DNA from: Kutzneria viridogrisea
Lineage (GTDB): Bacteria > Actinomycetota > Actinomycetes > Mycobacteriales > Pseudonocardiaceae
Length of the DNA stretch: 64,000 bases
Direction: 5' to 3'
NCBI GenBank assembly: GCA_014138725.1
Contig: JACJID010000003.1
Coordinates: 868,001-932,000 of the forward strand
The first letter of the stretch is position 1. Every line of letters starts with the position of its first letter. Of this stretch, positions 12,502-59,137 are shown piece after piece. The notes under the pieces are model-generated. The model did not search any database. It was not told the DNA's origin and saw only the letters and a list, made by a program, of their open reading frames with translations. A program made the position numbers and the translations under genes.

Positions 12502-12524
12502 CGACACCAGCTCCCCCAGATCCA

Positions 12525-12538: not shown

Positions 12539-12615
12539 GCCAACGTAGGGCGCCCGTGTCGGGGTGTCAACGCGGGCGCCCGAGTTCTGGTGATGTCATG
12601 GCATGGCCCGGCAGG

Positions 12616-12897
12616 GCGGGACTCGGGTGCGTCTGGGCGGGACTCGCAGGCAGGTAGGCGGGACTCGCGGTCAGGTGGACGGGACTCGGGCACGCCACGG
12701 CGGGACTCACGTGCACCAAGGCGGGACTCGCCAGCAGGTGAACGGGACTCGCCCACGCCAGGACGGGACTCGCAGGCAACTGGGCGGGACTCGCGCGCGC
12801 CAAGGCGGGACTCGCCAACAGGTAGGCGGGACTCGCCCACGCCAGAACGGGACTCGCCAGCAGCTGGGCGGGACTCGCCGGGGGCTGGGCGGGACTC
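12616..12897 (-). repeat. 21-bp GAGTCCCG repeat array 2
   Basis: Fourteen GGGACTC cores recur at exact 21-base steps from 12618 to 12891 (plus-strand reading); on the minus strand the unit reads GCGAGTCCCGCC. The variable part alternates between a few flavours such as caggcaggtagg and cacgccagga. The stop codon TGA of the upstream YceI-domain gene lies inside the first unit (ggcTGAGTCCCGCC). Orientation relative to the upstream gene is the same as in array 1. A long open frame through it arises only from the period of 21. Confidence 0.85.
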
Positions 12898-13720: not shown

Positions 13721-13730
13721 CACGAACTCC

Positions 13731-39968: not shown

Positions 39969-42887
39969 TCACCGGCACGGCGGCTGATAGGGCAGTCCGG
40001 GGAAGTACTGGTTCCACTGGGTGGCGGACACCGTGGGGTGCGCGATCGCGCACACCGTGCCCTCCAACCGGGTGCTGTCGCTCTCCCACAGCCGCACGGT
40101 GTGGTCGTCGCTGGCGGAGGCCAGGGTCTGCCCGTCGGGGGCGAAGGCAACCGCCTCGACCGTGCCGGTGTGGCCCATCAGTACGGAGCTCGGTCTGGGG
40201 TGCCCGGGGTCACTGAGGTCCCACAGCCGCACGGTGTGGTCATTGCTGGCAGAGGCCAGGGTGTGGCCCACCGGGCTGAAGGCCACGGCGTCGACGACGT
40301 CGGTGTGGCCGGTGATCGTGGACAGCAGCGACGGGTGGCGCAGGTCGCTGACGTCCCACAACTTCACCGTGTGGTCGTCACTGCCGGTGGCCACGCTGCG
40401 GCCGTCCGGGCTGAACTCGACGGTGGCCACGAAGTCCCCGTGCCCGACCAGCGAGGACAGCTCCACCGGACGTCTCGGGGTGCTGACGTCCCACAACTTG
40501 ACGGTGTGGTCGTCACTGCTGGTCGCCAGGGTCCGGCCGTCCGGGCTGAAACGCACCGACTTGACGTTGAGCGCGTGCCCGGTCAGCGTGGCCAACTCGG
40601 TGGCGTGCGCCGGATCGCTGACGTCCCACAACCTGGCGGTGTGGTCGTAGCTGCCGGTGGCCAGCGTGCGGCCGTCCGGGCTGAACATCATCGAGAAGAC
40701 CAGGTCGCCGTGCCCGGTCAGGGTGCGGAGCAGGACGGGGTGGCGCGGGTCGCCAACCTCCCACAGCCGGACGCTGTGGTCCCGGCAGCCGGTGGCCAGC
40801 AACCGGCCGTCCCTGCTGAACGCCACCGAGGCGATCACGTCGGTCTGCCCGGCGAGGGTGGACAGCACGGTGGCTCGCTGGCGATCGCTGACCGACCACA
40901 GCTTGACCGTGTGGTCCAGGCTGCCAGTGGCCAGGACACGGCCGTCCGTGCGCCACGTCACCGAACTGACGCCCTGGGCGTGCCCGACCACCGGCACCGA
41001 CAGGGTGCTCACCAGCGCGTCGCGGGTCTTCGCGGAGGGGGCCAGCCGGTAGGCGCCCAGGCTCAGCTGCGCGGCCAGCCCCCGCTCGCCCGCGGGCAGC
41101 GCGACGGCCTCCTGGGCGACCTTCTCGGCCAGGGCGGAGTTGCGCTGCTCGGCGATGGCCTGCTCGGCCCGCACGGTGAGCACGCTGGTCGTGGTGGTCA
41201 GGCACAGCATCGCGACCAGCGCCCCGATCAGCAGGTACAGCCGCCGGGCCTGGCGGCGGACGGCCGTGCGCTCGGCGTCCCACGCCGCGACGCTGTTCTC
41301 CAGGAAGGCCCGCTCCCGCGAGGTGAGCACGGTCTCGGGGCTGGCCACCAGGTGGCGCACCAGGGCCAACCGGTTGCCGCGGTAGAGCACGTCCGGGTCC
41401 CGGTCCAGCGACTCCCACACGGCGCTGGACTCGGTGAGCTGGCGGTGCAGGCGCAGCGCAGCCCGGTCCTCCGCCAACCGCTGCCGCAGCAACGGCCAGC
41501 AGTGGATCAGCGCCTCGTGCGAGACCTCCAGCACGTCCCGGTCCGCGGTCACCAGCCGGGCCCGCACGAGCGTCTCCAGCACCGCACTGGTCTCGGGGTG
41601 GTCCAGGTCCAGCTCGGCGGCACCCAGCCTGCGCTTGCCGTCCCTCGACTCGCCCTGCCCCAACTCCACCAGCCGCAGCAGCAGGTGCAGCGCACGCTCC
41701 CGCTGGTCCGGGGACAGCTCGGCGTAGACGGCGTCAGCGGTGCGGGTGACCACACCGGCGATGCCGCCCGCGGCCGTGTACCCGGCGAGGGTCACCACGT
41801 TGCCGCGGCGCCCGCCCCAGGTCTGCGCCATCGCCTGCGAGACCAGGGGCAGCACACCGGGTCGATCGGCGGCGTCGGCGACCACCCTGGACACCAGCGC
41901 GGTCTCCACCCGGCAGCCCACCTGCCCCGCCGGCTTGCTGACGGCCAGCCGCATCTCCTCGGCGGTCATCGGCCCCACCCGCACCTGGTGCTCGCGCAGC
42001 ACCTCGGACAGCACCGGGTCCTCGGCGGCACACCGCTCGGCGAAGTCCCCGCGCAGACCGAGCACCACCCGGACCCTGCTGTTGGCCGCCCGCACCGCCT
42101 CGGACAGCAGCCGCAGGAACCGCGCGCGCTCGTCCGCGTCCTGGCAGCGGCTGAACAGCTCCTCGAACTGGTCGACCACCAGCAGCAACTCCTGCCCGGC
42201 CCGGCGGTCGGCCGCCAACTGCAGTGCGGTCAGGTGCAACGCCGTCAGGTGCAACGCCCTGGGGTCGGCCCGCAACTCGGTGAGCACCTCCCTGGGCGAG
42301 CGGTGCACCAGCGCCGCCAACTGGGTCGCGCACTCCTCCAGCGGATGCGAGCCCGGCGCCAGCACCACGACCAGGTCGCTGGGCACCCCGTCCAGCCGAG
42401 CGGCGCGCGCCCGGTGCACCAGACCTGCCCGCAGCAGTGAGGTCTTACCGGATCCAGACGGCCCGACAACGGCGACGAGCCGATTTTCTGAGACCTTCTC
42501 GCACAGGGAGTCGACAATTCCCTCTCGCCCGAAGAACAGGTCCGCGTCCTCCACCCGGAATGCGGCCGGACCGACATAGGGCGGTGTGGCGTCCGACTCC
42601 TGTTCGAGGCTGCGCTGCGCCCGGATCTCCTCGGATACCTGGTGCCAGCGCTGCTCCCAACGGGTGGGATCCCCGCCACACGCCTGAACGTAGGCCACGG
42701 TCACCGCCAGGCTCGGCAGTTTCCGCCCTCCGGCGGCGTCGGAGAGCGCCCCCGTGGAGTAGTGGGCCCGCCTGCTGAGCTCCCGATACGCCGGGTTGCC
42801 CGCGGACTTCCGGAGTTCGCGCAGGTCAGACGCGAACCTCACGATCGGGTTGTCCACTGTGCCCAGTGGTCGTTCCTTACCTGCCAT
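39969..42887 (-). CDS. XRE-STAND ATPase with seven WD40 repeats
   Basis: The protein has 972 residues from the ATG at 42887 (GGGGGAAG upstream). An N-terminal XRE-like HTH (about 10-65) includes YRELSRRAHYSTGALSDAAGG. A novel-STAND NTPase follows with FFGREGIVDSL, Walker A VVGPSGSGKTSLLRAG (about 142) and Walker B ELLLVVDQFEELF. A membrane helix (LYLLIGALVAMLCLTTTT) sits near 545-565. Seven WD40 repeats (about 650-960) each end in DHTVKLW-type strands. These sensors switch on ligand binding by ATP-driven assembly. It is divergent from the biosynthetic operon and may regulate it. The 281-base spacer 42888-43168 holds both promoters; no clear boxes were assigned. Confidence 0.9.
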   Translation of the reverse strand: MAGKERPLGTVDNPIVRFASDLRELRKSAGNPAYRELSRRAHYSTGALSDAAGGRKLPSLAVTVAYVQACGGDPTRWEQRWHQVSEEIRAQRSLEQESDATPPYVGPAAFRVEDADLFFGREGIVDSLCEKVSENRLVAVVGPSGSGKTSLLRAGLVHRARAARLDGVPSDLVVVLAPGSHPLEECATQLAALVHRSPREVLTELRADPRALHLTALHLTALQLAADRRAGQELLLVVDQFEELFSRCQDADERARFLRLLSEAVRAANSRVRVVLGLRGDFAERCAAEDPVLSEVLREHQVRVGPMTAEEMRLAVSKPAGQVGCRVETALVSRVVADAADRPGVLPLVSQAMAQTWGGRRGNVVTLAGYTAAGGIAGVVTRTADAVYAELSPDQRERALHLLLRLVELGQGESRDGKRRLGAAELDLDHPETSAVLETLVRARLVTADRDVLEVSHEALIHCWPLLRQRLAEDRAALRLHRQLTESSAVWESLDRDPDVLYRGNRLALVRHLVASPETVLTSRERAFLENSVAAWDAERTAVRRQARRLYLLIGALVAMLCLTTTTSVLTVRAEQAIAEQRNSALAEKVAQEAVALPAGERGLAAQLSLGAYRLAPSAKTRDALVSTLSVPVVGHAQGVSSVTWRTDGRVLATGSLDHTVKLWSVSDRQRATVLSTLAGQTDVIASVAFSRDGRLLATGCRDHSVRLWEVGDPRHPVLLRTLTGHGDLVFSMMFSPDGRTLATGSYDHTARLWDVSDPAHATELATLTGHALNVKSVRFSPDGRTLATSSDDHTVKLWDVSTPRRPVELSSLVGHGDFVATVEFSPDGRSVATGSDDHTVKLWDVSDLRHPSLLSTITGHTDVVDAVAFSPVGHTLASASNDHTVRLWDLSDPGHPRPSSVLMGHTGTVEAVAFAPDGQTLASASDDHTVRLWESDSTRLEGTVCAIAHPTVSATQWNQYFPGLPYQPPCR
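42229..42258 (-). repeat. 15-bp tandem duplication inside the STAND gene
   Basis: GTCAGGTGCAACGCC occurs twice in direct contact, with a partial third copy on its left side (gcggtcaggtgcaac). In the protein it gives the repeat ALHLTALHLTALQLA between Walker A and B. The in-frame length keeps the reading frame intact. Confidence 0.7.
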
Positions 42888-43168
42888 CCTGCTTCCCCCC
42901 AGTGAGCAGTGCGGTCGGTTGTTCACAGTATGTCGTTCAGCGATCGCGCACGGGTACTGAACGACCCCGATGGACTAGACCTGAGGCAGGGCAGCGGTCC
43001 ACGACACCGCCGCCTCCCGAACCTGCAGACGGCCGCCGCGAGAACTCGCGACGACGCCAACCGAGAAGTGGATCAACGGTTCATGATGTTTCCACGTGCG
43101 ACCCGGGACTGCGCCCCGCCGAGGATTTCCGACACGTTCTCCGACCTTTTCTCAGGAGCGGTGCAGAC

Positions 43169-44386
43169 GTGCTGAAGCTGCCCAAGGCGTTCTGGCTGCT
43201 CTTCCTCGGACAAACGCTCAACCGCATTGGCCTGCTGGTTCCCGCATTCCTCGTGCTGTACCTGGAGGAGGGCAGGCTCGCGGACCCGTCGAGCACTCCC
43301 GTCGTGCTCGGACTGTTCGGCGCGGGCGTGGTCTCGGCCGGTCTGGTCGGCGGCGTGATCGCCGACATCATCGGCGCCCGGCGCACCATCATGGGTGCGC
43401 AGGTGGCCTGTGTGCTGGTCTCGGTGGCGATGATCTTCTCCACCAACATCTACCTGATCGGGCTGTTCGCGCTGATCGGCGGATTCCTCTCCGCTGTGCA
43501 CCGCCCGGCGGGCGCGGGACTCGTGGCCGCGCTGGTGCCCCAGGAGAACTTCTCCCGCGCCTACAGCATGTTGCACGTGGGCTTCAACGTCGGCGCCTCA
43601 CTGGGCCCGGTGCTCTCCGGCTTCCTGCTCGCGGCGTACCCGCCGGCGCTGTTCATCGCCTGGTCGGTCTCCAGCCTGCTGTACCTGCTGCTGATGCGCG
43701 CGGTGCCCAAGGACATCGCCGTGCCGCTGCGCGGCGGGGACCAGCCCTGGACGGTGGGCCGGGCCCTGCGCGGGGTGGTGGAGCCCTTCCGCAACCCGGT
43801 GCTGTTCGCCTACCTGCTGCTGTCCTTCCTGCTCGCCTGCATCTACCTGCAGGCTGGGTCGGCGCTGCCGCTGCACATGGCCTCGGTGGGGCTCAACCCC
43901 GAGCAGATCGGCCTGGTGCTCGCGGTCAACGCCGTGCTGATGGTGGGCCTGTTGCCCTTCGTGCCCAAGCTGACCGCCCGCATGGGTGAGAGCGCGCCGA
44001 TGGCGCTGGGCAGCCTGCTGGTCGGCCTCGGCTTCGGCCTCAACGCCCTGGCCACCAACATGAGCTGGTTCGCGGTGGCCGTGGTGATCTGGACCGTCGG
44101 CGAGGTGGTCTACGTGCCGATGGCCGCGACCTTCCTGGCCCGCCGGGCCCCGGCCAGGCTCACCAGCACCTACCAGGGCTCGTTCTTCTTCGCCTGGAAC
44201 CTCGGGCTGATCGCGGGCGGCCCGCTGGGCATCGTCTCCGCGCGGGAGTTCAGCTACAGCGCGCTGTGGCTGGGCACGATGGTGCTCGGCCTGCTCGTCG
44301 CGATCGGCTTCGCGCTGCTGCCCAAGCTGCCCGGTTACTCGGTGCTGCCCGCCCAGGTGCCCGCTGAGGACACCGCTGCCGCCTGA
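43169..44386 (+). CDS. MFS exporter, first gene of the putative biosynthetic cluster
   Basis: The protein has 405 residues from GTG 43169 (AGGAG 10 bases upstream); the longer frame upstream has no membrane-protein character. About 12 helices, with motif A-like GLVGGVIADIIGARRTI and HRPAGAGLVAALVP. It resembles the 12-TM drug-efflux branch. As the first gene before ligases and tailoring enzymes it probably exports the product and gives self-resistance. It ends 66 bases before the ATP-grasp gene. Confidence 0.85.
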   Translation: MLKLPKAFWLLFLGQTLNRIGLLVPAFLVLYLEEGRLADPSSTPVVLGLFGAGVVSAGLVGGVIADIIGARRTIMGAQVACVLVSVAMIFSTNIYLIGLFALIGGFLSAVHRPAGAGLVAALVPQENFSRAYSMLHVGFNVGASLGPVLSGFLLAAYPPALFIAWSVSSLLYLLLMRAVPKDIAVPLRGGDQPWTVGRALRGVVEPFRNPVLFAYLLLSFLLACIYLQAGSALPLHMASVGLNPEQIGLVLAVNAVLMVGLLPFVPKLTARMGESAPMALGSLLVGLGFGLNALATNMSWFAVAVVIWTVGEVVYVPMAATFLARRAPARLTSTYQGSFFFAWNLGLIAGGPLGIVSAREFSYSALWLGTMVLGLLVAIGFALLPKLPGYSVLPAQVPAEDTAAA

Positions 44387-44452
44387 GGGTTCGTCCTGCC
44401 TCGGCAGCACGCAGAACACACACCTGCCCAACGCTGATCAGAAAGCAGTGCG

Positions 44453-45706
44453 ATGAAACGGATCGCCATCATTGGCAGCCGCACGGCCATGGCCAGGCAC
44501 GCCAAGGAGTTCGGCCTCGAGATCGTGCTCGTGCACAGTCCGGAGGCACCGCCGACCAGAGTCGCCCAGTACCTCGACCAGGCCATCTGCTGCCCGGTGA
44601 CCGACCCGGAAGCGGTGTACGAGGTGCTGCGCCCGTTGCACGAGGAGCGCCCGTTCAGCCGGGTCCTGGCCCCCGGTGAGGACGGGGTGCTGGCCGCGGC
44701 CGTGGCCAGCGAGCGCTTCGGCCTGGAGGGCAACAGCGTCCAGACCGTGCTGACCATCAAGAACAAGGTGCTCACCAGGAAGGTGCTCGACGAGCTGGGC
44801 ACCCCGGTGCGCAGCCGCGAGGTGGCCAGCGAGGCGGAACTGGTCGAGTTCCTCACCGAGATCGGCGACCAGGTCATCCTCAAGCCGATCGACAGCACCG
44901 GCAGCCTGGCCACGCACATCGTGCGCGACCGGCAGCAGGCCGCGACCTGCTGGGCGCTGTTCGCCCAGGAGGGGCACCACCGAGGGCTGGTCGAGGAGTA
45001 CCTGGTCGGGCCCGAGGTGACGATGGAGTCGTTCACCGTCGCGGGGCAGCACTTCCCGGTCGGGGTGGACGAGTACATCAAGAACGACACCGGCCTGGTG
45101 CCGCTGGCCTCGGTGGTGCCCGGCCGGATCTCCGCCGAGGACCGGGAGGCCATGCGCCAGCAGATGGTCGCGCTGCTCGACGCGGTGGGCCTGCGGGAGG
45201 GACCGGCGCACACCGAGTTCATCCTGACCGCCAACGGGCCGCGCATCCTGGAGACGCACAGCCGCATCGGCGGCGGCGGCATCGACGAGCTGGTGCGCAG
45301 GGCGCACGGCGTGGACCTGTCCAGGGTGCAGGTGACGGTGCCGCTGGGACTGGAGGAGTTCACCCCGCCCGACCTGGACGCGGGCCGGGGCGCGGTGATG
45401 ATCTTCTTCGCGCCCAAGCCAGGCAGGGTGACCGCCGTGTCCGGCCTGGAGGAACTGGGCGTGACCTACAGCCACACCCCGGTGGAACCGGCCTGGACCG
45501 GGCTCAAGGGCCTGGAACACATCCGGCAGGCCGAGGTCGGGGTCAACCTGTGCCTCCAGGTCGGCGACATCGCGCCGGAGGTGAACACCAACTGGGACCG
45601 GCTGATGGGCTGCGTGGTGGCCACCGGGGAGAGCGCACAGGACGCGCTGGACCGCGCGGAGCAGGTGATGGCGGCGATCAAGATCGAGACCGAGCCGGTC
45701 GGCTGA
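44453..45706 (+). CDS. ATP-grasp carboxylate-amine ligase (L-amino acid ligase-like)
   Basis: The protein has 417 residues. N-terminal Rossmann-like part (KRIAIIGSRTAMARHAKEFG), ATP-grasp core with LTIKNKVLTRKVL, VILKPIDSTGS (ATP-binding Lys), VEEYLVGPEVTMESF and the Mg-binding HTEFILTANGPRILETHSRIGG. The pattern matches the BacD / carnosine-synthase / PurT-like set that makes amide bonds through acyl phosphates. In bacterial clusters such enzymes build dipeptides. Its substrates are unknown. It sits directly upstream of a second, unrelated amide-forming enzyme (GH3 type). Confidence 0.87.
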   Translation: MKRIAIIGSRTAMARHAKEFGLEIVLVHSPEAPPTRVAQYLDQAICCPVTDPEAVYEVLRPLHEERPFSRVLAPGEDGVLAAAVASERFGLEGNSVQTVLTIKNKVLTRKVLDELGTPVRSREVASEAELVEFLTEIGDQVILKPIDSTGSLATHIVRDRQQAATCWALFAQEGHHRGLVEEYLVGPEVTMESFTVAGQHFPVGVDEYIKNDTGLVPLASVVPGRISAEDREAMRQQMVALLDAVGLREGPAHTEFILTANGPRILETHSRIGGGGIDELVRRAHGVDLSRVQVTVPLGLEEFTPPDLDAGRGAVMIFFAPKPGRVTAVSGLEELGVTYSHTPVEPAWTGLKGLEHIRQAEVGVNLCLQVGDIAPEVNTNWDRLMGCVVATGESAQDALDRAEQVMAAIKIETEPVG

Positions 45707-45745
45707 CCGGCACGACGCGGACAACCATGTGGGGGATGGAACGAC

Positions 45746-47476
45746 GTGGACGCCGAGACATCAGTGCTGTCACAACAACTGGAGCAGACCGACCGGGGGC
45801 GGGCCGAGCGGCAGCAAGCCAACTCCTCGGTGGTGTCGGACTCCTTCCTGAGCAGGGCTCGCACCGCGCTGGAGCGCCAGCGGGCGGTCTGCCGCGAACC
45901 GGGTGACCTGCCCGAGCGCGTGTTCAAGGACATCCTGGGCCAGGCCGAGGGCACCTACTTCGGCAAGAAGCACGACCTGGCCAGGGTCCGCGGCCTCAGC
46001 GACTGGAAGAAGGCGGTGCCGATCCGCTGCTACCCGGCGCTGCGGCCCTACATCGACAAACTGCTCGACGGCGACTCCAACGTGCTGACCAGGAGTGAGC
46101 CGTACGCGCTGCTGAAGACCTCCGGGTCCAGCGGCAAGCCGAAGCTGATCCCCACCACTCGGCACTGGCGCAACGCCTACCGAGGGCGTGCCCTGTACGC
46201 GCAGTGGGGTCTGTACTTCGAGCACATCGGCTTCGACCGGGCGCGGGACACCGCCGTGCTGGACCTGTCCTGGGAGCGGTCCACCTCCTCGCAGAGCGAG
46301 GGCGGCTACCCCAGCTACAGCATCTCCCAGCGCCCCGCGGCGGTCAGCAGCACCGACTGGGTTCCCAGCTGGTACGAGGAGAGCTGGTTCCAGGGCGTCG
46401 ACGGCGAGGACTACAAGAGCGGCCTGTACCGCAAGCTGCGGCTGCTGGCCGGGTCCGACGTGCGGATCATCGTGGCGCTCAACCCGTCCAAGATCGTCGG
46501 ACTGGCCGAGCAGCTGGCCGAGCGCGGCGAGGACCTGATCTCCGACATCCGCAACGGCACGCTGGCCGGGCGGGCGACGCACGTGGACCGCGACCGGGAC
46601 CTGGCCGCGCGGCTGGACCGTTCGCGGCAGGCCAACGGGGGCACGCTGCGGCTCAGGGACCTGTGGCCGAACCTGTCGCTGGTGGTGTCCTGGAACTCCG
46701 CCTCGGCAGCGCTGTACCGGCCCTGGCTGGAGGAGGTGACCCCAGGCATCCCCAAGTTGCCGTTCAGCGCCACCGGCACCGAGGGCATCGTCACGATCCC
46801 CGTGGACGAGCACATCTCGGCCGGGCCGCTGGCCATCGACCTCGGCCTGTACGAGTTCGCCCCGGTCGGGCAGCGTGAGGAGGGCACCGACCTGGAACCG
46901 GACGCGGAGACCCTGGACTACCGCGACGTCGAGGTGGGCGGCACCTACAACATCGTGATGAGCCAGGCGAACGGGCTGTACCGCTACGACCTCGGCGACC
47001 GGTACACGGTGGTCGACCGGGTCGGCGGCGTGCCCCGGCTGGAGTTCGCCGGGCGCACCGGGTTCGGCAGCTCGTTCACCGGGGAGAAGCTCACCGAGGA
47101 GGACGTGTACAACGCCGTGCGGCTCAGCCTCGGCGAGCACTGGCGCGGCCGCCCGCTGTTCAGCCTGGTCCCGGTCTGGGCCACCCCGCCCGGCTACACC
47201 CTGGCGATCGAGTGGCCGCAGGACTGCCCGCTGTCGGCGCCGGAGTTCGCCGCCGCCGTGGAGCGGCAGTTGCAGCAGCTGAACATCGAGTACGCCGAGA
47301 AGCGGCGCACCGACCGGCTCACGCCCATCACCGTGCTGCCGCTGCGGCCCGGGGCCTTCGGCGTGGTCGAGGAGCGGCGCAGGCTGGAGGGCGCCTCGCC
47401 CGCCCAGCTCAAGCACCACTGGATCCAGCGCAACGGCGATCTGCTGCGGTACCTCGGAACCGACACACAGCGTTAA
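45746..47476 (+). CDS. GH3-family acyl-adenylate/amide synthetase
   Basis: The protein has 576 residues, the usual GH3 length. ANL-type P-loop LLKTSGSSGKPKLIPTT (about 124-140), LSLVVSWNSASAALY, the acyl-binding/adenylation motif PFSATGTEGIVTIP and NGLYRYDLGDRY with the GRTGFGSSFTGEKLTEEDV hinge match the GH3 auxin-conjugating enzyme family. Plant members join amino acids to jasmonate, indole-acetate or benzoates; bacterial ones are rare and mostly uncharacterised. It likely activates a small carboxylic acid as AMP ester and passes it to an amine. GTG start after GGGGGATGGA. Confidence 0.9.
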   Translation: MDAETSVLSQQLEQTDRGRAERQQANSSVVSDSFLSRARTALERQRAVCREPGDLPERVFKDILGQAEGTYFGKKHDLARVRGLSDWKKAVPIRCYPALRPYIDKLLDGDSNVLTRSEPYALLKTSGSSGKPKLIPTTRHWRNAYRGRALYAQWGLYFEHIGFDRARDTAVLDLSWERSTSSQSEGGYPSYSISQRPAAVSSTDWVPSWYEESWFQGVDGEDYKSGLYRKLRLLAGSDVRIIVALNPSKIVGLAEQLAERGEDLISDIRNGTLAGRATHVDRDRDLAARLDRSRQANGGTLRLRDLWPNLSLVVSWNSASAALYRPWLEEVTPGIPKLPFSATGTEGIVTIPVDEHISAGPLAIDLGLYEFAPVGQREEGTDLEPDAETLDYRDVEVGGTYNIVMSQANGLYRYDLGDRYTVVDRVGGVPRLEFAGRTGFGSSFTGEKLTEEDVYNAVRLSLGEHWRGRPLFSLVPVWATPPGYTLAIEWPQDCPLSAPEFAAAVERQLQQLNIEYAEKRRTDRLTPITVLPLRPGAFGVVEERRRLEGASPAQLKHHWIQRNGDLLRYLGTDTQR

Positions 47477-47498
47477 CAGATTCCCTTGGGGGGTAAGG

Positions 47499-48368
47499 AT
47501 GTTAGCGACACAGGACGTGCACTCGGTGGCGGAACTGGCCGCCGGGGACGGCACTCCGCTGGCACTGCACAGCTGGACGGCGGCCGATCCCGCGGACGTG
47601 CGCGGGGTGCTCTTTTACGTGCACGGGATCCAGAGCCACGCGGGCTGGTTGTTCGAGACCGGTCCGGAACTGGCACGGCGCGGGGTGGCCACCTACGCCC
47701 TGGACCGGCGCGGGTCCGGGCTCAGCGGTGGCGGCCGGGGCGACCTGCCCACCGCCGAGGTGGTCGTGCAGGACTACCTGCGCGGTCTGGCCGCGGCGCG
47801 GGAACTGGCCCAGGGCCTGCCGCTGACGGTGCTGGGGCAGAGCTTCGGCGCCAGCGTGGTGGCCGCGCTCGCCGCGGGCACCGACCCCGGTGCGGACGCG
47901 ATCGTGTACTGCACCCCGGCGCTGGGCCAGCAGCGTGCGCGGCACAAGCCGGACGACCTGGTACGGCTGCGGCAGTCGCTCGGCGGGCAGCGCTCACCGA
48001 TCGCGCTGGAGGACGAGGACTACACCAGCGAGTCGCGCTACCTGGAGTTCATGGCCAACGACCGCCTGATGCTGCGGCAGGTCACCGAGCGCACCAGGGC
48101 GGCGATGGTGGGGCTGGAGGACCTCTACACCGGGCGGCGGGCGCCGGGCGGGGCCCAGGTCCACTTCGTGCGCACCGAACTCGACCCGATCATCGACCTG
48201 ACGGTGGCGGAGAAGGTGCTGATCGACCTGCACGAGACCTTCACCGCGACCACCTTCCCGATCCGGCAGCACTACGTGGAGTTCTCCTCGGTGCGGCGGG
48301 ACTACTGGGACTGGCTGGCCGAGGTCGTGCTCAGGACCGACCGGGCCCGACGGGTCCGCACCCCGTGA
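47499..48368 (+). CDS. Alpha/beta hydrolase (serine-aminopeptidase/lysophospholipase-like)
   Basis: The protein has 289 residues. Oxyanion part GVLFYVHGIQSHAGWL, RRGSGLS, nucleophile elbow VLGQSFGASV with Ser near 114, then probable acid in RTELDPIIDL and a late His in ETFTATTFPIRQHYVEF region. The lid is short. It may hydrolyse an ester/amide intermediate or act as proofreading thioesterase-like enzyme in the cluster. GGGGGGTAAGG precedes the ATG. It overlaps the next gene by four bases (GTGA). Confidence 0.85.
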   Translation: MLATQDVHSVAELAAGDGTPLALHSWTAADPADVRGVLFYVHGIQSHAGWLFETGPELARRGVATYALDRRGSGLSGGGRGDLPTAEVVVQDYLRGLAAARELAQGLPLTVLGQSFGASVVAALAAGTDPGADAIVYCTPALGQQRARHKPDDLVRLRQSLGGQRSPIALEDEDYTSESRYLEFMANDRLMLRQVTERTRAAMVGLEDLYTGRRAPGGAQVHFVRTELDPIIDLTVAEKVLIDLHETFTATTFPIRQHYVEFSSVRRDYWDWLAEVVLRTDRARRVRTP

Positions 48369-49528
48369 TCGAGCAGATCCTGGTCCGCACGGCCGAGATC
48401 CCGATGGCACGGCCGTTCGTGCACGCGGCGAAGTCGCGGCACCACACCGCTTCGGTGCTGGTGACCGTGACCGCCCGTGGGCAGCGCGGCTGGGGCGAGG
48501 GCGCACCGAGGCCCTACGTCACCGGGGAGACAGTCGCCTCGGCGGAGCAGGCGCTGCGCCGGATCAGCCCGGACTGGCTGAACCGGCTCATCGACCTCAA
48601 CGAGTTCGAGGCGGCCGTGCGCCAACTCGCCTCGCTGGACCTGAGCCGGTTGGTCGGTGGCGGGCAACCGGCACGGGCTGCCGCCACGGCGCTGGAGATC
48701 GCGCTGTTCGACCTGATCTGCCGGCTGCACGGCCGATCGGGACTGGACGGGCTGCGCAGCACCCCGCTCGGGGCACGGCTGCTGGCCCCGACCGGCTCCC
48801 CGGCTCCGGTCAGCTGCGTGCTGGACCTGGCCAAGGACCCGGCCGAGACCATCTCGGCGCTCGGTGAGCGGGCGATCAGCTCGATCCGGCACGTGAAGCT
48901 GAAGGCCACCAAGCTGCTGGACACCTGCGTGCGGCACGTGTCCGCCGTGCGGGAGCGCTTCTCGGCGGACACCACCATCTCGGTGGACGCCAACGGGGAC
49001 TGGGACCGTGCCACGGCGGTGCTGGCCGCGCGGAGGCTGGCACCGCTGCGGGTCGGCTGGCTGGAGGAGCCGGTCCGCCCCAGGGACTGGGCCGCGCTGC
49101 GGGAGGTTCGCGAGGCGGGCGGTGTTCCCGTGATGCTCGACGAGTCCTGTGTGGACACAGCGGACCTGGAGATCGCCCACGCGCTGTCGGCCGTGGACTC
49201 GGTCAACGCACGGATCAGCAAGTGCGGCGGCCTGTTCCCGACCCTGCGGCTCGTGCAGCGGGCCCGCGAACTGGGGCTGGGCGTGCAACTGGGGGTCCAG
49301 GTGGGTGAGGTCGGCCCGCTCTGGGCCGCGGGCCGGCTGCTGGCCACCGCGCTCGAGGGCCTGGCCACCGCCGAGGCCGGCAGGCAGGACGACTGGTTCC
49401 CGGTGCCGCTGACCGAACCGCCCTATGCCGTGGACCGCGAGCGGTACCTCGCCGGACCGGTCGGCGGCGTGGGGATCGGTGTGCTGCCCGGACGAGACCT
49501 GAACCAACACTGGGAGGAACTGACGTGA
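48365..49528 (+). CDS. Enolase-superfamily enzyme of the muconate-lactonising / dipeptide-epimerase subgroup
   Basis: The protein has 387 residues. The capping domain (about 1-130) carries VTVTARGQRGWGEGAPRPYVTGE. The barrel has the KxK motif HVKLKATK (about 178-180), metal ligands in SVDANGDW, VGWLEEPV and VMLDESC, and the second-side Lys in NARISKCGG. This set is expected for the MLE subgroup: cycloisomerases, N-succinylamino-acid racemases, dipeptide epimerases. With two amide ligases in the operon, epimerisation of an amino-acid or dipeptide centre is a plausible role. GTG start overlaps the hydrolase stop. Confidence 0.88.
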   Translation: MIEQILVRTAEIPMARPFVHAAKSRHHTASVLVTVTARGQRGWGEGAPRPYVTGETVASAEQALRRISPDWLNRLIDLNEFEAAVRQLASLDLSRLVGGGQPARAAATALEIALFDLICRLHGRSGLDGLRSTPLGARLLAPTGSPAPVSCVLDLAKDPAETISALGERAISSIRHVKLKATKLLDTCVRHVSAVRERFSADTTISVDANGDWDRATAVLAARRLAPLRVGWLEEPVRPRDWAALREVREAGGVPVMLDESCVDTADLEIAHALSAVDSVNARISKCGGLFPTLRLVQRARELGLGVQLGVQVGEVGPLWAAGRLLATALEGLATAEAGRQDDWFPVPLTEPPYAVDRERYLAGPVGGVGIGVLPGRDLNQHWEELT

Positions 49529-50271
49529 CGAACGGAACTGCGCTGCTCATCGGTGCGGCCGGCGGAATCCTGCGCGAGGTCGCCGCTGGGCTGGCCGAGC
49601 AGGGGCACGGGCTGGTGCTGCTGGACCGGGACGAGCAGGCGGTCAGCGCGCTGGCCGGGGAGCTGTCCGCGAAGACGAAGGTGGAGGTCGTGGTCGGGGA
49701 CATCACCGACTACGCCGCCGCGAGCGAGCAGTTGGCCGAGGTGGTCGCGAAGCACGCGCCGTCCGTCCTGGTCAACGGGGTCGGCGGGGACACCAGGGTG
49801 ATCGGCTACGCCGACCTGACCACCGAGCACTTCGACACCGCGATCACCGAGAACCTGGTCAGCACCTTCATCGCCATCAGGGCCTGCGCGCCCGCGATGA
49901 CCGAGGCGGGCTACGGGCGGATCGTGAACTTCGCCTCCGCTGGCGGCCGCACCTACAGCCACTTCAACAACGCCGCCTACGTGGCCGCCAAGGCCGCCGT
50001 CATCGGCATGACCAAGCAGATCGCCTACGAGCTGGCACCGCACGGGGTGGTGGCCAACGTGGTCGCCCACGGGCCGATCGCCACCGCCCGCGTCGCGGGC
50101 GCCTGGGAGCGGCGCGACCCCGCGCAGCGCGAGACCGTGCTGTCCAAGCTGCCGATGCGGCGCATGGGCAGTGTGCGGGAGGCGGTCGGCAGCGTGCTCT
50201 ACCTGTGCTCGGACAGCGCCGGGTACACCACCGGCTCGGTGATCGACATCAACGGCGGCCTCTACATGTGA
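49525..50271 (+). CDS. Short-chain dehydrogenase/reductase
   Basis: The protein has 248 residues. Nucleotide-binding loop ALLIGAAGGILREVA (a variant of TGxxxGIG), NGVGGD in the NNAG position, catalytic Ser/Tyr/Lys in NFASAGGR and AAYVAAKAA, and SVIDINGGLYM at the C-terminus. Classical SDR length. It may oxidise or reduce a hydroxy/keto group of the cluster's building block. GTG start overlaps the enolase-family stop codon. Confidence 0.9.
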   Translation: MTNGTALLIGAAGGILREVAAGLAEQGHGLVLLDRDEQAVSALAGELSAKTKVEVVVGDITDYAAASEQLAEVVAKHAPSVLVNGVGGDTRVIGYADLTTEHFDTAITENLVSTFIAIRACAPAMTEAGYGRIVNFASAGGRTYSHFNNAAYVAAKAAVIGMTKQIAYELAPHGVVANVVAHGPIATARVAGAWERRDPAQRETVLSKLPMRRMGSVREAVGSVLYLCSDSAGYTTGSVIDINGGLYM

Positions 50272-50306
50272 CCTTCGGGCACGCCAACAGACAGGAGGGT
50301 TCTCCC

Positions 50307-50594
50307 GTGTTCGTGGTGGAGTTGCAGTACAACGTGGACCGCGCGGGCCGCGAGCCTTCGCACCGGGCGCACGCCGAGTACCTGGCCTCGCTGACCGAGC
50401 GCGGCGTGCTGCGCGGAGCCGGTCCGCTGGTCGACGCCAACGGCGGCCTGCTCGTGTACGACGTGCCCGACCGGGCCGCGTTGCAGGAGGTGCTCGACAA
50501 CGAGCCCTACGTCCAGGCGGGACTCGTCGCGCAGACCCTGGTCCGCGAGTGGAACCCGGGCAAGGGCAGCTGGTTCACCACGGCCGTCAGCTGA
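50307..50594 (+). CDS. YciI-like small protein
   Basis: The protein has 95 residues from GTG 50307, with ACAGGAGGG eight bases upstream. Ferredoxin-like pattern with RAHAEYLASLTERGVLRGAGPLVD and a C-terminal LVREWNPGKGSW. The conserved His of YciI-like domains is in SHRAHAEYL. Members act as small dehydrochlorinase/muconolactone-isomerase-like enzymes or have unknown roles. It sits between SDR and aminotransferase genes. Confidence 0.85.
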   Translation: MFVVELQYNVDRAGREPSHRAHAEYLASLTERGVLRGAGPLVDANGGLLVYDVPDRAALQEVLDNEPYVQAGLVAQTLVREWNPGKGSWFTTAVS

Positions 50595-50624
50595 CGGCCT
50601 CCTCTGGGGGGTAGGAGAAAAACG

Positions 50625-51962
50625 ATGAGTATGTCCATTGTGGACAGCGAGGTGCGCGGCCGGGTCGAGTTCGACCTCGCCGAGCTGCACGGCGCCGTGG
50701 TCGACCCCGGCATGGACTCGATGCGGCTGCTGAGCGAGACCGCCATGGCGTTCCCGGACGCCCTGTCGTTCTCCTCGGGCGCACCGCACGACGGCAATCA
50801 CGACCTGTCCCGGCTGTCGGTCCACCTGGAGCGCTACCTGCGGCACCTGCGCGAGACCGGCGTGCCCGAGCGCCGGATCAGGCGGCTGCTGTTCCAGTAC
50901 GGGCCGGTCAACGGCTTCATCCAGGACGAGATCGCCCGCATGCTGGTGCGGGACGAGGACATCCACGTGCCCGCCGAGGCGATCATGGTGACGCACGGCG
51001 CACAGGAGGCGATGCTGATCGCGCTGCGCGGGCTGTGCACCTCGCCGGGGGACGTGCTGCTGTCGGTGTCCCCGACCTACGTGGGCATCGTGGGTGCGGC
51101 CAAGACGCTGGACATCCCGGTCAAGGCCGTGCACGAGGGCCCGCACGGGCTGGAGCCCGAGGCGGTGCGGGCGGCGGCCCGCGAGGTCCGGGCCGAGGGC
51201 GGGCGCCCGGTGGCCTGCTACCTGGTGCCGGACTTCGCCAACCCGACCGGGACCAGGCTCAGCGAGCAGGCACGGCGCGAGCTGCTCCAGGTCGCCGCCG
51301 AGGAGGGCCTGCTGCTGCTCGAGGACAACCCCTACGGGCTGTTCGCGGCCGAGGGCGACCAGCTCCCGACGCTGAAGTCCTTGGACGACAAGGGTTGTGT
51401 GCTCTACCTCGGCTCCTTCGCCAAGTCGGCCTTCCCCGGTGCCAGGATCGGCTACCTGGTGGCCGACCAGCCGGTGACCGAGGCCGACGGGCGGGTCCGC
51501 CCGCTGGCCGCCGTGCTGTCGAAGGTCAAGAGCATGATCAGCGTGGGCTCCTCCTCCATCGCCCAGGCCGTGGTCGGCGGCATCCTCGTCGAGCACGACT
51601 ACGACCTGCGCTCGGCCACCCGCGAACTGGCCAGGACCTACCTGGAGCGGTTGGCGGCGACGACCAGCAGCCTGACCGAGCACTTCCCCGCACAGCGCTA
51701 CGCCGAGCACGGCGTGCGCTGGAACACCCCGCGCGGCGGCTTCTTCCTCGTACTGGAGGTCGGGTTCACCGCCGACCTGGCCGCGATGGAGCGCTGCGCG
51801 CGCGACTACGGGGTGAGCTGGGCCCCGATGAGCATGTTCCACGTGGACGGTGGCGGGGACCGCGCGATGCGCCTTGGCTTCAGCAATCTGTCCACAGAGG
51901 ACATCCGCGAGGGCATCTCCCGGCTCGCCCGCTTCATCACCGAGACCCCGCGCACCGCGTAG
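50625..51962 (+). CDS. Fold-type I PLP aminotransferase, HpgT/DpgT-like
   Basis: The protein has 445 residues. MDSMRLLSETAMAFPDALSFSSGAPHDG, LFQYGPVNGFIQDEIARML, MVTHGAQEAMLIALRGL, LSVSPTYVGIVGAAKTLDIPV, VPDFANPTGT and the PLP Lys in YLGSFAKSAFPGARIGY. The combination is closest to transaminases such as HpgT/DpgT that make 4-hydroxy- or 3,5-dihydroxyphenylglycine from glyoxylates. It has no N-terminal GntR domain, so it is not a MocR regulator. AGGAG precedes the ATG. It likely supplies a non-proteinogenic amino acid for the ligases. Confidence 0.87.
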   Translation: MSMSIVDSEVRGRVEFDLAELHGAVVDPGMDSMRLLSETAMAFPDALSFSSGAPHDGNHDLSRLSVHLERYLRHLRETGVPERRIRRLLFQYGPVNGFIQDEIARMLVRDEDIHVPAEAIMVTHGAQEAMLIALRGLCTSPGDVLLSVSPTYVGIVGAAKTLDIPVKAVHEGPHGLEPEAVRAAAREVRAEGGRPVACYLVPDFANPTGTRLSEQARRELLQVAAEEGLLLLEDNPYGLFAAEGDQLPTLKSLDDKGCVLYLGSFAKSAFPGARIGYLVADQPVTEADGRVRPLAAVLSKVKSMISVGSSSIAQAVVGGILVEHDYDLRSATRELARTYLERLAATTSSLTEHFPAQRYAEHGVRWNTPRGGFFLVLEVGFTADLAAMERCARDYGVSWAPMSMFHVDGGGDRAMRLGFSNLSTEDIREGISRLARFITETPRTA

Positions 51963-52004
51963 GCGGTCTTCCTCCTTTCCTTTCAACTCAGTCGACAAAC
52001 AGGG

Positions 52005-52973
52005 GTGGACAAGATGGACGCACAGAGCGTCTTCACTCTCAACGACACCGAGCGGCACGAGCTGAGCGCGCTCGCCGACGTGCTCGCTGGCACCGAGCCC
52101 GGCAAGATCGACGAGGAGAGCTGGATGAGCGCGGGCCGCGACCGGTCCGCGAGCATCCCCGCGCGGCTGGCCGCCAGGGTCCGGCAGTTCCGCCACGACA
52201 GCGGTGTGGACGGCGCGCTGCTGATCCGCAACCTGCCCGTGGCCGAGGGCCTGCCGCCGACCCCGGCGGTGCTCGGCTCGGTCGAGCGCGAGGCCACCAA
52301 CCCGGCCTCGGTGATCACGCTGGTCTCCCTGCAACTCGGTGAGATCATCGCCTTCCGCAACGAGAAGTCCGGGGCGCTCGTGCAGAACGTGGTGCCGGTC
52401 CCCGGCCAGGAGGCGGCGCAGAACAACGCGGGCTCCAAGCGGCTGGGCATGCACGTGGAGAACACCTTCCATCCCAACCGCCCGGACTACGTCGCGCTGT
52501 TCTGCCTGCGCGCCGACCACGACCGCGAGGCGGAGCTGCAGATCACCTCGGTGCGCAGGGCCGTCGAGCTGGTGTCCGATGTGGACCGCAAGGTGTTGCA
52601 GCAGCCCAGGTTCGTCACCGCGCCGCCCTCCTCGTTCCCCTCGCTGGGCGGCGAGCCCGAGCCGCACGCCCTGCTGGTCGGCGACGTGGACGACCCCGAC
52701 GTGCGCGCGGACTTCATCAGCACCGTGCCGCTCGACGAGGAGGCCGCCGCGGCCAAGGACCGGCTGGAGCAGGCCTTCGCCGAGGTGGTCGAGTCGCTCA
52801 AACTGGAGCCCGGCGACCTGGCCATCGTGGACAACCGCCTCGCGCTGCACGGGCGCAGCTTCTTCAAGCCGCGCTACGACGGCCAGGACCGCTGGCTGCA
52901 CCGCACCTTCATCCAGCTCGACGGCCGCCGGTCGCGGGCCGTCCGTCAGGGCAACGGCAGTGTGCTCGACTGA
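52005..52973 (+). CDS. Fe(II)/2-oxoglutarate oxygenase, clavaminate-synthase/asparagine-oxygenase-like
   Basis: The protein has 322 residues. The facial triad appears as HxE in GMHVENTFHPNRPDYVALFCLR (about 149-151) and a distal His in NRLALHGRSFF, followed by the 2OG-binding Arg in RWLHRTFIQLDGRR. HxE in place of HxD is a mark of the VioC / AsnO / clavaminate synthase group, which beta-hydroxylates free amino acids. It probably hydroxylates an amino acid or the dipeptide product. GTG start; an in-frame ATG lies three codons later. Confidence 0.88.
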   Translation: MDKMDAQSVFTLNDTERHELSALADVLAGTEPGKIDEESWMSAGRDRSASIPARLAARVRQFRHDSGVDGALLIRNLPVAEGLPPTPAVLGSVEREATNPASVITLVSLQLGEIIAFRNEKSGALVQNVVPVPGQEAAQNNAGSKRLGMHVENTFHPNRPDYVALFCLRADHDREAELQITSVRRAVELVSDVDRKVLQQPRFVTAPPSSFPSLGGEPEPHALLVGDVDDPDVRADFISTVPLDEEAAAAKDRLEQAFAEVVESLKLEPGDLAIVDNRLALHGRSFFKPRYDGQDRWLHRTFIQLDGRRSRAVRQGNGSVLD

Positions 52974-53006
52974 CCGGTCGGGGGCGCGCCCGGTGAGGAG
53001 GGCACC

Positions 53007-53864
53007 ATGAGGACCGCCACCCTCGCCGGGCGCGCCGCCCTGGTGTGCGACGGGGTCGCGCTCGACATCGCCACCGCCAGCCGAGGCCGGTTCCCCGCCG
53101 AGCCCTGGCTGCTGTTCGACCGGTGGGAGGAGGTGCTCGCCTGGTCACGGGAGGCCGACCTCAGCCAGGCCGCACCGATCGACCCCGCCCAGTTGCAGGC
53201 GCCCTCCCCACGGCCAAGGCAGGTCTTCGCCGTGGCCAGCAACTACCGCGACCGGCCCGCTGTGGTGCCCGGTGGACCCGACCTGCCCGTCGTGTTCACC
53301 AAGTACCCGTCCAGCATCGTCGGGCCGAACGTCTCGCTGCCGCTGCCCACCGACACCGTCGACTGGGAGGTGGAGCTCGTCCTGGTCATCGGACGGCAGG
53401 TGCACGCCTTGCCCGAGGAACTCGCCTGGGACGCCGTCGCCGGGGTCACCGTCGGGCAGGACTACTCGGAGCGCACCCTGCAACTCGGCGGTGCCGCCAA
53501 GCAGTTCAGCCTCGGCAAGTCGCTGCCCAACTTCGGGCCGACCGGTCCGGTGCTGGTGACCCCCGACGAACTCGCCGACCGCGATGACCTGCACCTGTTG
53601 TGCACCATCAACGGCGAGGTCGTGCAGGAGGCCCGCACCAGCCAGATGATCTTCTCGGTCCCCGAGCTGATCGCCCGGCTGTCGGCGGTGTGCACCCTGC
53701 TGCCCGGTGACCTGATCTTCACCGGGACCCCCGGCGGCCTCGGCATGACCCGGCAGCCGCCGAGGTACCTGTCCGTGGGCGACGAGGTGGTCAGCCAGAT
53801 CGAGGGCATCGGCCAGATGCGCAACCTCTGCACCACCCCGGTCGGGGTGGCCCAGCCGGTCTGA
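53007..53864 (+). CDS. Fumarylacetoacetate hydrolase (FAH) family protein, last gene of the cluster
   Basis: The protein has 285 residues. FAH fold with VFAVASNYRDRP, FTKYPSSIVGPN, metal ligands in DWEVELVLVIG and VTVGQDYSERTLQ, the FSLGKSLPNFGPTGPVLV segment, and LLPGDLIFTGTPGGLGMTR. Family members cleave acylpyruvates, decarboxylate or isomerise beta-keto acids. It may make or break a keto-acid precursor. GAGGAGG precedes the ATG. The operon seems to end here; decayed DNA follows. Confidence 0.9.
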   Translation: MRTATLAGRAALVCDGVALDIATASRGRFPAEPWLLFDRWEEVLAWSREADLSQAAPIDPAQLQAPSPRPRQVFAVASNYRDRPAVVPGGPDLPVVFTKYPSSIVGPNVSLPLPTDTVDWEVELVLVIGRQVHALPEELAWDAVAGVTVGQDYSERTLQLGGAAKQFSLGKSLPNFGPTGPVLVTPDELADRDDLHLLCTINGEVVQEARTSQMIFSVPELIARLSAVCTLLPGDLIFTGTPGGLGMTRQPPRYLSVGDEVVSQIEGIGQMRNLCTTPVGVAQPV

Positions 53865-54792: not shown

Positions 54793-56022
54793 GTGAGCGG
54801 TATCAGGGTGTTGGTGGCAGGGGCGAGCATCGCGGGGCCCGCGCTGGCCCACTGGCTGCGCCGGCGGGGGGCCGAAGTCACCGTGGTGGAGCGGGCCCCT
54901 GAACTGCGTCCCGGCGGACAGGCCGTGGACGCGCGCGGGGTGACCAGAGAGGTCATCCGGCGCATGGGACTGGACGCGGCCGTGCGCGCGGCCCGCACCG
55001 AGACCGCTGGCGCGTACACCGTGGACGTGGACGGGAACGTGCTGGAGACCCACCGCGCGGACGACGACGGCGGCGACGGGTACATCGCGGAGATCGAGAT
55101 CCTGCGCGGGGACCTGTCCCGAGTGCTCCACGAGGACACCCGGGACGGTGTCGAGTACGTCTTCGGCGACCGGATCGCCGAGCTCACCCAAGACGCGCAC
55201 GGGGTCGACGTGGCCTTCGCGGGCGGCGACCGGCGGCGCTTCGACCTGGTGGTCGGGGCGGACGGGCCGCACTCGGCACTGCGAGCGATGGTCTTCGGGC
55301 CGCACGAGCGGTTCGTCCGCCGTCTCGGGCACATGATGGCCTTCTACACCGTGCCCAACGAGTTCGGGCTGGACCGCTGGCTGATCGACTACCAGGAATC
55401 CGAGTCCGGGCGCTCCGCCGGCCTGCGGCCCATCCAGGACGCCACCCGGGCGATGGCCATGTTCTCCTTCCCCGCAGCCGACCTCGACGTCGACTACCGC
55501 GACGTCGCGGCCCAGAAGCGCCTGCTGCGCGAGCAGATGGCCGGCCTGGGCTGGTTGACCCCGCGCATCCTCGCGCACCTGGACGACACCCCGGACTTCT
55601 ACCTTGACCAGGTCGCCCAGGTGGTGATGGACCGCTGGTCGAGCGGACGGGTCGGGCTGCTCGGAGACGCGGCGTTCAGCTCCTCGCCGCTGTCCGGGCA
55701 GGGCACCGGGTTGGCCCTGGTCGGCGCCTACCTGCTGGCCGGAGAGCTGGCCTCCGCCGGGTGGGACCCGGAGGCCGGGTTCGCCGGCTACGAGCGGCGG
55801 ATGCGCTCGTTCGTCGAGGCCAACCAGGAGATCGGCCGGTTGCACGCGCGCAGCCGTGACGTCCCCGGGCCGGACGCCGAGCCAAGTCCGGAGCTTGACG
55901 CCGAGTGGCTCACCGAGCTGGTCGAGCGCGCGATCAACGGCGTCGAGCTGCCCGACTACGCGGGGGTGCCGGACTCCGGGGCCCCGGCCGGACCGTCGAT
56001 CACCTCGTCGGCCATGTCGTAG
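54793..56022 (+). CDS. FAD-dependent aromatic-ring monooxygenase (PHBH/TetX-like)
   Basis: The protein has 409 residues. FAD motif IRVLVAGASIAGPALAHWLRRRG, LRPGGQAVDARG, EIEILRGDLSRVL, the DG motif LVVGADGPHSALR and the GD motif GRVGLLGDAAFSSSPLSGQGTGLAL give a complete group A flavin monooxygenase. GTG start with AGGGGACA upstream. It could hydroxylate an antibiotic or a phenolic; substrate unknown. It sits in a region rich in antibiotic-resistance remnants. Confidence 0.9.
   Translation: MSGIRVLVAGASIAGPALAHWLRRRGAEVTVVERAPELRPGGQAVDARGVTREVIRRMGLDAAVRAARTETAGAYTVDVDGNVLETHRADDDGGDGYIAEIEILRGDLSRVLHEDTRDGVEYVFGDRIAELTQDAHGVDVAFAGGDRRRFDLVVGADGPHSALRAMVFGPHERFVRRLGHMMAFYTVPNEFGLDRWLIDYQESESGRSAGLRPIQDATRAMAMFSFPAADLDVDYRDVAAQKRLLREQMAGLGWLTPRILAHLDDTPDFYLDQVAQVVMDRWSSGRVGLLGDAAFSSSPLSGQGTGLALVGAYLLAGELASAGWDPEAGFAGYERRMRSFVEANQEIGRLHARSRDVPGPDAEPSPELDAEWLTELVERAINGVELPDYAGVPDSGAPAGPSITSSAMS

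Positions 56023-56473: not shown

Positions 56474-59137
<2,664 letters not shown>

Follow-up and report, generated by a model that had tools for sequence, protein, structure and literature searches.

A polyketide synthase-free gene cluster of Kutzneria viridogrisea that appears to combine a borrelidin-type acid module with a dipeptide-type ligase set

The dapdiamide pathway employs an adenylate-forming ligase, an ATP-grasp ligase and an Fe(II)/2-oxoglutarate (Fe/2OG) enzyme (DdaG, DdaF and DdaC, respectively), and the small bacilysin cluster encodes the ATP-grasp ligase BacD, the short-chain dehydrogenase/reductase (SDR) BacC, the aminotransferase BacF and the major facilitator superfamily (MFS) protein BacE. 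The borrelidin cluster comprises a polyketide synthase (PKS), nitrile genes, a threonyl-tRNA synthetase (ThrRS) and a luciferase-like reductase, together with a GH3 protein, a hydrolase, an enolase, an SDR and a fumarylacetoacetate-hydrolase (FAH) superfamily protein, which we take to be those named BorL, BorF, BorE, BorD and BorN; clusters of this type presumably use such a module for trans-cyclopentane-1,2-dicarboxylic acid. Here we analyse a stretch of 64,000 nucleotides from Kutzneria viridogrisea (contig JACJID010000003.1, positions 868,001 to 932,000), termed “the window”, which is part of a 10.25-Mb genome and carries a compact cluster of ten genes on the + strand (43169-53864). About half of this cluster matches, by homology, the gene set that would serve to make borrelidin’s unusual carbocyclic starting acid.

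The cluster probably makes a small amide-linked natural product. The reading that we favour, at a probability of roughly 50%, divides it into two parts: a borrelidin-type acid module, consisting of GH3, hydrolase, enolase, SDR and FAH along with a YciI-like protein, and an add-on set of aminotransferase, AsnO-like hydroxylase, ATP-grasp ligase and MFS exporter, which together would yield an exported amide. What was computed is gene content, conservation, homology and the integrity of catalytic residues; from these we infer substrates, step order, ring formation and product class. Each of the enzyme families is known, and the novelty lies in the combination of the module with a dipeptide-type ligase set, which was not found in the open-licence PubMed Central (PMC) literature searched. 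The same literature gave no account of the mechanism of a bacterial GH3 natural-product cluster or of the borrelidin starter.

The borrelidin link rests on gene order as well as on similarity. A Streptomyces plasmid carries a GH3 protein about 50% identical to that of the window within the annotated order PKS-P450-aminotransferase-dehydrogenase-GH3-luciferase-like monooxygenase (LLM)-FAH-ThrRS; much the same arrangement occurs in three more Streptomyces genomes (L018, L020 and L023), and we take it to be the borrelidin cluster with GH3 as BorL. When S. griseocarneus, S. netropsis and S. rochei were searched with the window enolase, each returned one strong match (E 4e-95 to 1e-92), and one of the three a second, weak match (4e-13). 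In all three, hydrolase, enolase and SDR follow each other in the window’s order at 48-50%, 46-48% and 51-52% identity, respectively, and a second SDR comes next (L114-L116). In S. griseocarneus and S. netropsis, this trio and GH3-LLM-ThrRS share a contig, some 43.5 kb apart, and in S. rochei enolase and GH3 are on separate contigs. Between the two cluster parts of S. griseocarneus is a PKS whose dehydratase matches the borrelidin PKS domain 6obt with 399 bits over 286 residues. The borrelidin genes missing from the plasmid were not at its other end either, and no enolase of this muconate-lactonizing (MLE) type was found on plasmids at E 1e-15. Window and borrelidin clusters accordingly share homologous GH3, hydrolase, enolase, SDR and FAH proteins, the hydrolase-enolase-SDR order and a GH3 protein in the same supported clade of 15 rows. 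In contrast, PKS, nitrile genes, ThrRS and the luciferase-like reductase are absent from the window cluster (the first three also from a scan of nine flanking genes; no search for them covered the remainder of the genome), which in turn has an aminotransferase, an ATP-grasp ligase, an Fe/2OG enzyme and a YciI protein beyond the borrelidin-type set.

A borrelidin-type GH3-hydrolase-enolase-LLM-FAH set also occurs, together with a methyltransferase, in Kutzneria buriramensis (L022/L100, 5540-11781); a PKS was not apparent in the stretch retrieved, of which the scan did not cover every gene.

The GH3 gene (45746-47476; 576 amino acids) encodes three GH3 Pfam domains (197.7, 66.2 and 55.3 bits against a cut-off of 23.6 each), and the fold of its product resembles amide synthetases in structure comparison; the protein is predicted to be an acyl-acid amido synthetase. 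Its relatives were retrieved by an alignment query, a single-protein scan of genome contigs having returned none. Five of 397 genomes of the order and three of 396 of the phylum gave GH3 matches, the window’s own included in each (L087 and L088 are among the latter). Among six other genomes of the same genus that were listed, G837 alone had a GH3 match at threshold, in a cluster of another type whose GH3 stretch is the same as in the K. buriramensis record (L022); among close relatives, the window cluster thus has a sporadic distribution. According to PMC12493201, GH3 enzymes make N-acyl amino acids, and the bacterial GH3 protein OlsH serves in lyso-ornithine lipid formation; the window protein has the family and, as predicted, ATP-dependent amide formation in common with OlsH, yet scores 77.2 against 620 bits on the OlsH model and has different neighbours. 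A GH3 gene is also listed in the rubiginone cluster, with no role stated in that passage (PMC8487521).

In a maximum-likelihood tree of 36 GH3 rows, 26 proteins form one clade (support 99/97) with branches of 15 and 11. The tree omits L016, where the contig ends right after GH3, L053, where GH3 is cut at the contig end and hydrolase and enolase follow, L099 and L100, which repeat the sequences of L021 and L022, and most loci of L036-L085. All 26 clade members have a hydrolase and an enolase, 23 of them around GH3 and three of borrelidin type elsewhere in the genome. Among the ten rows outside the clade, for which the partners were sought in the fetched stretch, two have both (L031, and L048 with a weak hydrolase match), one has the enolase alone (L054) and seven have neither; for L102, L106 and L107, outside the clade and from the window’s family, a genome-wide search gave no enolase match at 1e-40. 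The three genes are adjacent in the order GH3-hydrolase-enolase in 19 of 30 loci, window included. Of 52 further GH3 loci (L035-L085 and L011, many on short contigs), 49 showed neither hydrolase nor enolase; L048 and L053 have both and L054 the enolase alone. For 22 of the 26 clade members, the fetched stretch yielded an FAH-superfamily match (FAH in 10, AraD1 type in 12, some weak); those of L019, L020, L023 and L098 did not.

A genome-level count agrees. Among 297 genomes of the family, the enolase alignment search gave five matches with E below 1e-120, followed by a gap to 6e-49, and the same five, the window’s included, have a GH3 match below 1e-100 (next 4e-80). The Fisher p of 5e-11 is weakened by thresholds set after the matches had been seen, by kinship left out of account and by the presence of three of the five genomes in the enolase alignment. 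The six genomes of the family whose GH3 match lies between 1e-72 and 1e-80 have neither hydrolase nor enolase within 20 kb. Because every clade GH3 has both partners and the same five genomes carry strong GH3 and enolase matches, GH3, hydrolase and enolase are regarded as a coherent module.

Beside the module, in Burkholderia cenocepacia NCTC13227 (L025, 13658-17702), lie genes for a thiamine pyrophosphate enzyme, an AraD1 protein and a haem-oxygenase-like iron enzyme. In G238, GH3 is split into two pieces about 1.2 Mb apart (L010, 9976-11274; L012, 10541-10900), with transposase-like genes, recognized by eye, near both, and is a decayed, rearranged copy.

The second part of the cluster begins with the MFS exporter (43169-44386; 405 amino acids; MFS_1 128.6 bits), counterparts of which are 60% identical in L013, 52% in L009 and 47% in L014. 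The ATP-grasp ligase of L-amino-acid-ligase type (44453-45706; 417 amino acids) matches LAL_C2 (49.7 bits, cut-off 29.4) and ATP-grasp_4 (32, cut-off 27), and its best solved relative is the L-amino acid ligase BL00235 (3vot; E 5.8e-18). The class-I aminotransferase, dependent on pyridoxal phosphate (50625-51962; 445 amino acids; Aminotran_1_2 95.3 bits), is aminoadipate-aminotransferase-like: its nearest solved relatives are 1wst, 1x0m, 3aov, 2zc0, 2egy (2-aminoadipate) and KAT II, by type multiple-substrate, alanine-glyoxylate, 2-aminoadipate and kynurenine/aminoadipate aminotransferases, and MppQ comes further down. The Fe/2OG hydroxylase (52005-52973; 322 amino acids; TauD) is closest to the asparagine oxygenase 2og5 (E 2.6e-82, 280 bits; runner-up 3.6e-44), that is AsnO of the calcium-dependent antibiotic CDA, although the window gene does not stand beside a non-ribosomal peptide synthetase (NRPS). 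The two enzymes have the HxE...H iron ligands in common, as well as an Asn located nine residues ahead of the first iron-binding His, which we take to be the side-chain position of AsnO and where clavaminate synthase has Glu. A homologue of this hydroxylase, 72% identical, occurs in L013 and in no other searched locus.

A search for the same gene set in other genomes, suggested by the original prediction, returned a near-complete copy, variants in three more genomes and another, decayed one. The near-complete set, in Streptomyces sp. UNOC14_S4 (L013), is identical to the window at 60% for MFS, 65% for ATP-grasp, 76% for GH3, 67% for hydrolase, 58% for enolase, 75% for SDR, 67% for YciI, 68% for aminotransferase and 72% for Fe/2OG, and an AraD1-type protein of the FAH superfamily replaces FAH. 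Two loci from genomes of the window’s order (L009 with L136, L008 with L137) and one from a Renibacterium metagenome-assembled genome (L014) have GH3, hydrolase, enolase, SDR, YciI, aminotransferase, FAH and MFS in common with the window; their ATP-grasp ligase is of a different, DdaF-related type, and L009 has a luciferase-like monooxygenase in place of the Fe/2OG enzyme. L008 (G058) is the decayed one, with MFS in two pieces (region 12179-14168) and an ATP-grasp protein cut to 157 residues, while both are intact, in one frame each, in its close relative L009. In G889 (L101 and L123), identity to this type of cluster is 60-73% for SDR, YciI, aminotransferase, ATP-grasp and monooxygenase, but no more than 34-39% to the window for GH3, hydrolase and enolase, and its GH3 belongs to the other branch. 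Because of this mosaic, either half of the cluster seems open to exchange. Ligase and oxidase co-vary over four loci, the LAL type occurring with Fe/2OG (window, L013) and the DdaF-like type with the luciferase-like monooxygenase (L009, L101). Judged by these comparisons, aminotransferase, ligase and hydroxylase are add-ons to the module, of which ligase and oxidase differ among relatives. G889 has a second ATP-grasp gene (L123, 6317-7081, - strand; 31% to the window’s) about 3.3 kb past the monooxygenase, which perhaps adds a third residue.

These ligases bear on the best-surviving alternative, a dapdiamide-like pathway in which GH3 couples the completed acid with an amino acid, ATP-grasp adds a second residue, and enolase, SDR, FAH and hydrolase make the acid. 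Such a pathway, anticipated by the original prediction, has in its favour the amide synthetase fold of GH3, the LAL-type ligase of the window and the DdaF-related ligases of L009, L014 and L101, and an adenylate-forming GH3, an ATP-grasp ligase and an Fe/2OG enzyme are indeed present. However, the window ligase falls far below the DdaF equivalog model (31.7 against 840 bits) and is of LAL_C2 type, the Fe/2OG enzyme is AsnO-like, no gene forming diaminopropionate is among the ten, and GH3 goes with the borrelidin-type acid module: it accompanies hydrolase and enolase in numerous loci, PKS clusters included, in which no homologue of either ATP-grasp was found (other ATP-grasp families were not sought). 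We regard this alternative as possible, yet on the doubtful side. Bacilysin offers a looser parallel, with ATP-grasp, SDR, aminotransferase and MFS genes in a small cluster as in the window; the ligase likewise fails the BacD equivalog model (32.2 against 850 bits), the window has GH3, enolase and FAH in addition, and no BacA- or BacB-like family is among the ten.

The catalytic residues of enolase and hydrolase are intact. In the enolase-superfamily enzyme of the muconate-lactonizing subgroup (48365-49528, GTG start at 48365; 387 amino acids; MR_MLE_C 129.6 bits), both Lys of the KxK motif, the three metal ligands (Asp/Glu/Asp) and a later Lys are invariant in 32 of 32 rows (30 distinct). Its nearest solved relative is the N-succinyl-Arg/Lys racemase 2p88, and N-succinylamino acid racemase, chloromuconate cycloisomerase and dipeptide epimerase tie as nearest folds of the structure model (pLDDT 92.5). 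Dipeptide epimerases have an Asp-x-Asp motif after the eighth strand; the window enolase has Ala-Glu-Ala-Gly near that position, where its alignment to 3jva stops. A menaquinone-like MenH/MenC/MenE parallel was considered and stands as an analogy, the enolase matches to MenC models being below cut-off. Products resembling ketomycin, cispentacin or amidinomycin also came into consideration and were set aside. The alpha/beta-hydrolase (47499-48368; 289 amino acids; Hydrolase_4 88.8 bits) is of serine-aminopeptidase/monoacylglycerol-lipase type, with monoacylglycerol lipases as nearest solved relatives (E 5e-9). The Asp and His of its presumed triad are kept in 30 of 30 rows (28 distinct), and the nucleophile is Ser in 18 rows and Cys in 12, namely the 11 of the other GH3 branch and L048 (L024-L030, L032-L034, L048, L101). 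Both residue alignments include two duplicated genomes (L021/L099, L022/L100). The SDR (49525-50271; 248 amino acids; adh_short_C2 151.2 bits) is 71-78% identical to its counterparts in L008, L009, L013, L014 and L101. The YciI-like protein (50307-50594; about 95 amino acids; YCII 54.1 bits) most likely starts at GTG 50307, preceded by AGGAGGG. The FAH enzyme (53007-53864; 285 amino acids; FAA_hydrolase 195.9 bits) has the putative HpcE 6v77 as nearest solved relative (E 2.9e-77) and copies at 72% in L009, 71% in L008 and 58% in L014, as well as 39% identity to the S. rochei copy over 232 residues.

Several of these affiliations would suit an analogue of ring-cleavage catabolism run for biosynthesis, with the enolase as cycloisomerase, YciI as muconolactone-isomerase-like, the hydrolase as enol-lactone hydrolase and FAH as decarboxylase or isomerase, and an open or lactonised diacid, rather than a carbocycle, as the unit made. 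The enolase subgroup fits, the YciI protein matches the muconolactone-isomerase model weakly (21.5 bits, under the cut-off of 26.7), the FAH protein has HpcE/HpaG enzymes among its relatives, with scores short of the HpaG cut-offs, the L026 cluster encodes a protein of the 5-carboxymethyl-2-hydroxymuconate isomerase family that has homologues in L024 and L027, and the Cys nucleophile in 12 of the 30 hydrolase rows is reminiscent of dienelactone hydrolase. Yet the hydrolase is nearest to monoacylglycerol lipases, no ring-cleaving dioxygenase is among the ten genes, and ligase, exporter and aminotransferase favour synthesis, so that we hold this scheme to be doubtful. Also conceivable, and in our estimate unlikely, is a protect-isomerise-release sequence, in which an amino acid is first N-acylated by GH3 and then epimerised by the enolase in the manner of N-acylamino acid racemases, before the hydrolase sets the D-amino acid free; the relation to 2p88, the serine-aminopeptidase Pfam family of the hydrolase and the formation of N-acyl amino acids by GH3 enzymes (PMC12493201) are in line with it. 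An ordinary catabolic operon without a secreted product is very improbable, since the families are common to sugar-acid and aromatic catabolism but the sparse distribution (strong GH3 and enolase in five of 297 family genomes, the window’s included), the mosaic clusters, the ligase and exporter, and the relation to borrelidin all speak against it.

On the favoured two-part reading, a 2-oxo diacid would undergo enol/keto interconversion by FAH, with YciI, and reduction or oxidation by the SDR. GH3 would couple one carboxyl to an amine via an acyl-adenylate, the enolase would remove the alpha-proton beside the remaining carboxyl of the conjugate and thereby bring about carbocycle closure, dehydration or epimerisation, and the hydrolase would cleave the conjugate. 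If trans-cyclopentane-1,2-dicarboxylate arises from an open C7 diacid, its ring has to close between the two alpha-carbons, and an enolase-type enolate beside a 2-oxo group would suit such a bond. The ring in the window’s product is inferred, and since the luciferase-like reductase and the second SDR are missing, the unit may be less reduced or different. Formation of an amino acid from a pathway 2-oxo acid would fall to the aminotransferase, hydroxylation of asparagine in its free form (or of a near analogue) to the AsnO-like enzyme, the final amide bond to the ATP-grasp ligase and export of the product to the MFS protein. The proposed module output is a carbocyclic or isomerised diacid-derived unit, amide-joined to an amino acid that is perhaps 3-hydroxyasparagine.

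Apart from the limits of the Fisher value, several points weigh against this proposal. No metabolite is known for the cluster, and the presumed role of the genes in borrelidin starter synthesis goes back to older work. The window cluster is without the luciferase-like (F420/LLM) reductase that adjoins GH3 in borrelidin clusters, the best match in its own genome being 44% over 235 of 305 residues on another contig, and it also lacks the second SDR seen in L114-L116. Near GH3, L020 and L023 yielded no FAH match, although L018 and the plasmid do have one. The fold comparison leaves racemase, cycloisomerase, epimerase and succinylbenzoate synthase unseparated for the enolase. Finally, L014 carries a DdaF-like ligase and no monooxygenase was found there, so that the co-variation of ligase and oxidase is imperfect.

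As a wider generalization, put forward tentatively and with less than even confidence, GH3-hydrolase-enolase with an FAH-superfamily partner may be a mobile cassette in which GH3 masks a carboxyl, the enolase does the carbon chemistry and the hydrolase releases the product, a transient amide thus leading to carbocyclic or isomerised diacids. It would serve in a borrelidin-type PKS setting, in the present dipeptide-ligase setting and in several other clusters from Actinomycetota, Pseudomonadota and perhaps Gemmatimonadota, the ligases and oxidases around it being exchanged. A GH3 cluster without prior explanation is now tied to borrelidin, so that each pathway can help in studying the other, and ten PKS-free genes are a much easier system than a PKS cluster for the joint GH3/enolase/FAH chemistry. 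If the proposal holds, clusters that have no PKS or NRPS core should give rise to a whole family of small products, and a rule for finding more of them is to look for GH3 adjoining a hydrolase and an MLE-type enolase; the alternation of Ser and Cys in the hydrolase would give a handle on its chemistry.

The layout is that of a single compact unit. The original prediction of ten co-directional genes with gaps of at most 66 bases holds exactly, the successive values being 66, 39, 22, -4, -4, 35, 30, 42 and 33 bases; it had spoken of several overlaps, and overlaps do exist, though just two of 4 bases each (hydrolase/enolase and enolase/SDR). Its family assignments are backed by Pfam for all ten genes, with NCBIfam in agreement, and the Pfam scan also bore out that no PKS or NRPS gene is among them. 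All ten are open from start to stop without inner stops, with a third-codon GC content of 0.91-0.96. In an all-against-all comparison of 29 loci, counterpart families occur at other GH3 loci for all nine cluster genes kept by the gene caller, but for no flanking gene of the window (the enolase, dropped by the caller, had its counterparts identified separately); the cluster boundaries are therefore well chosen and the gene set is beyond chance.

Just upstream of the MFS gene, a divergent nSTAND1 NTPase with WD40 repeats (39969-42926, - strand) is a possible regulator. Downstream lie an FAD monooxygenase (54793-56022, + strand), related to the tetracycline-destructase and rifampin-monooxygenase families and below the cut-off of both (275.9 against 550 and 59.4 against 800 bits), and a rifamycin-inactivating phosphotransferase (56492-59137, + strand; 1577.9 bits against a cut-off of 999).

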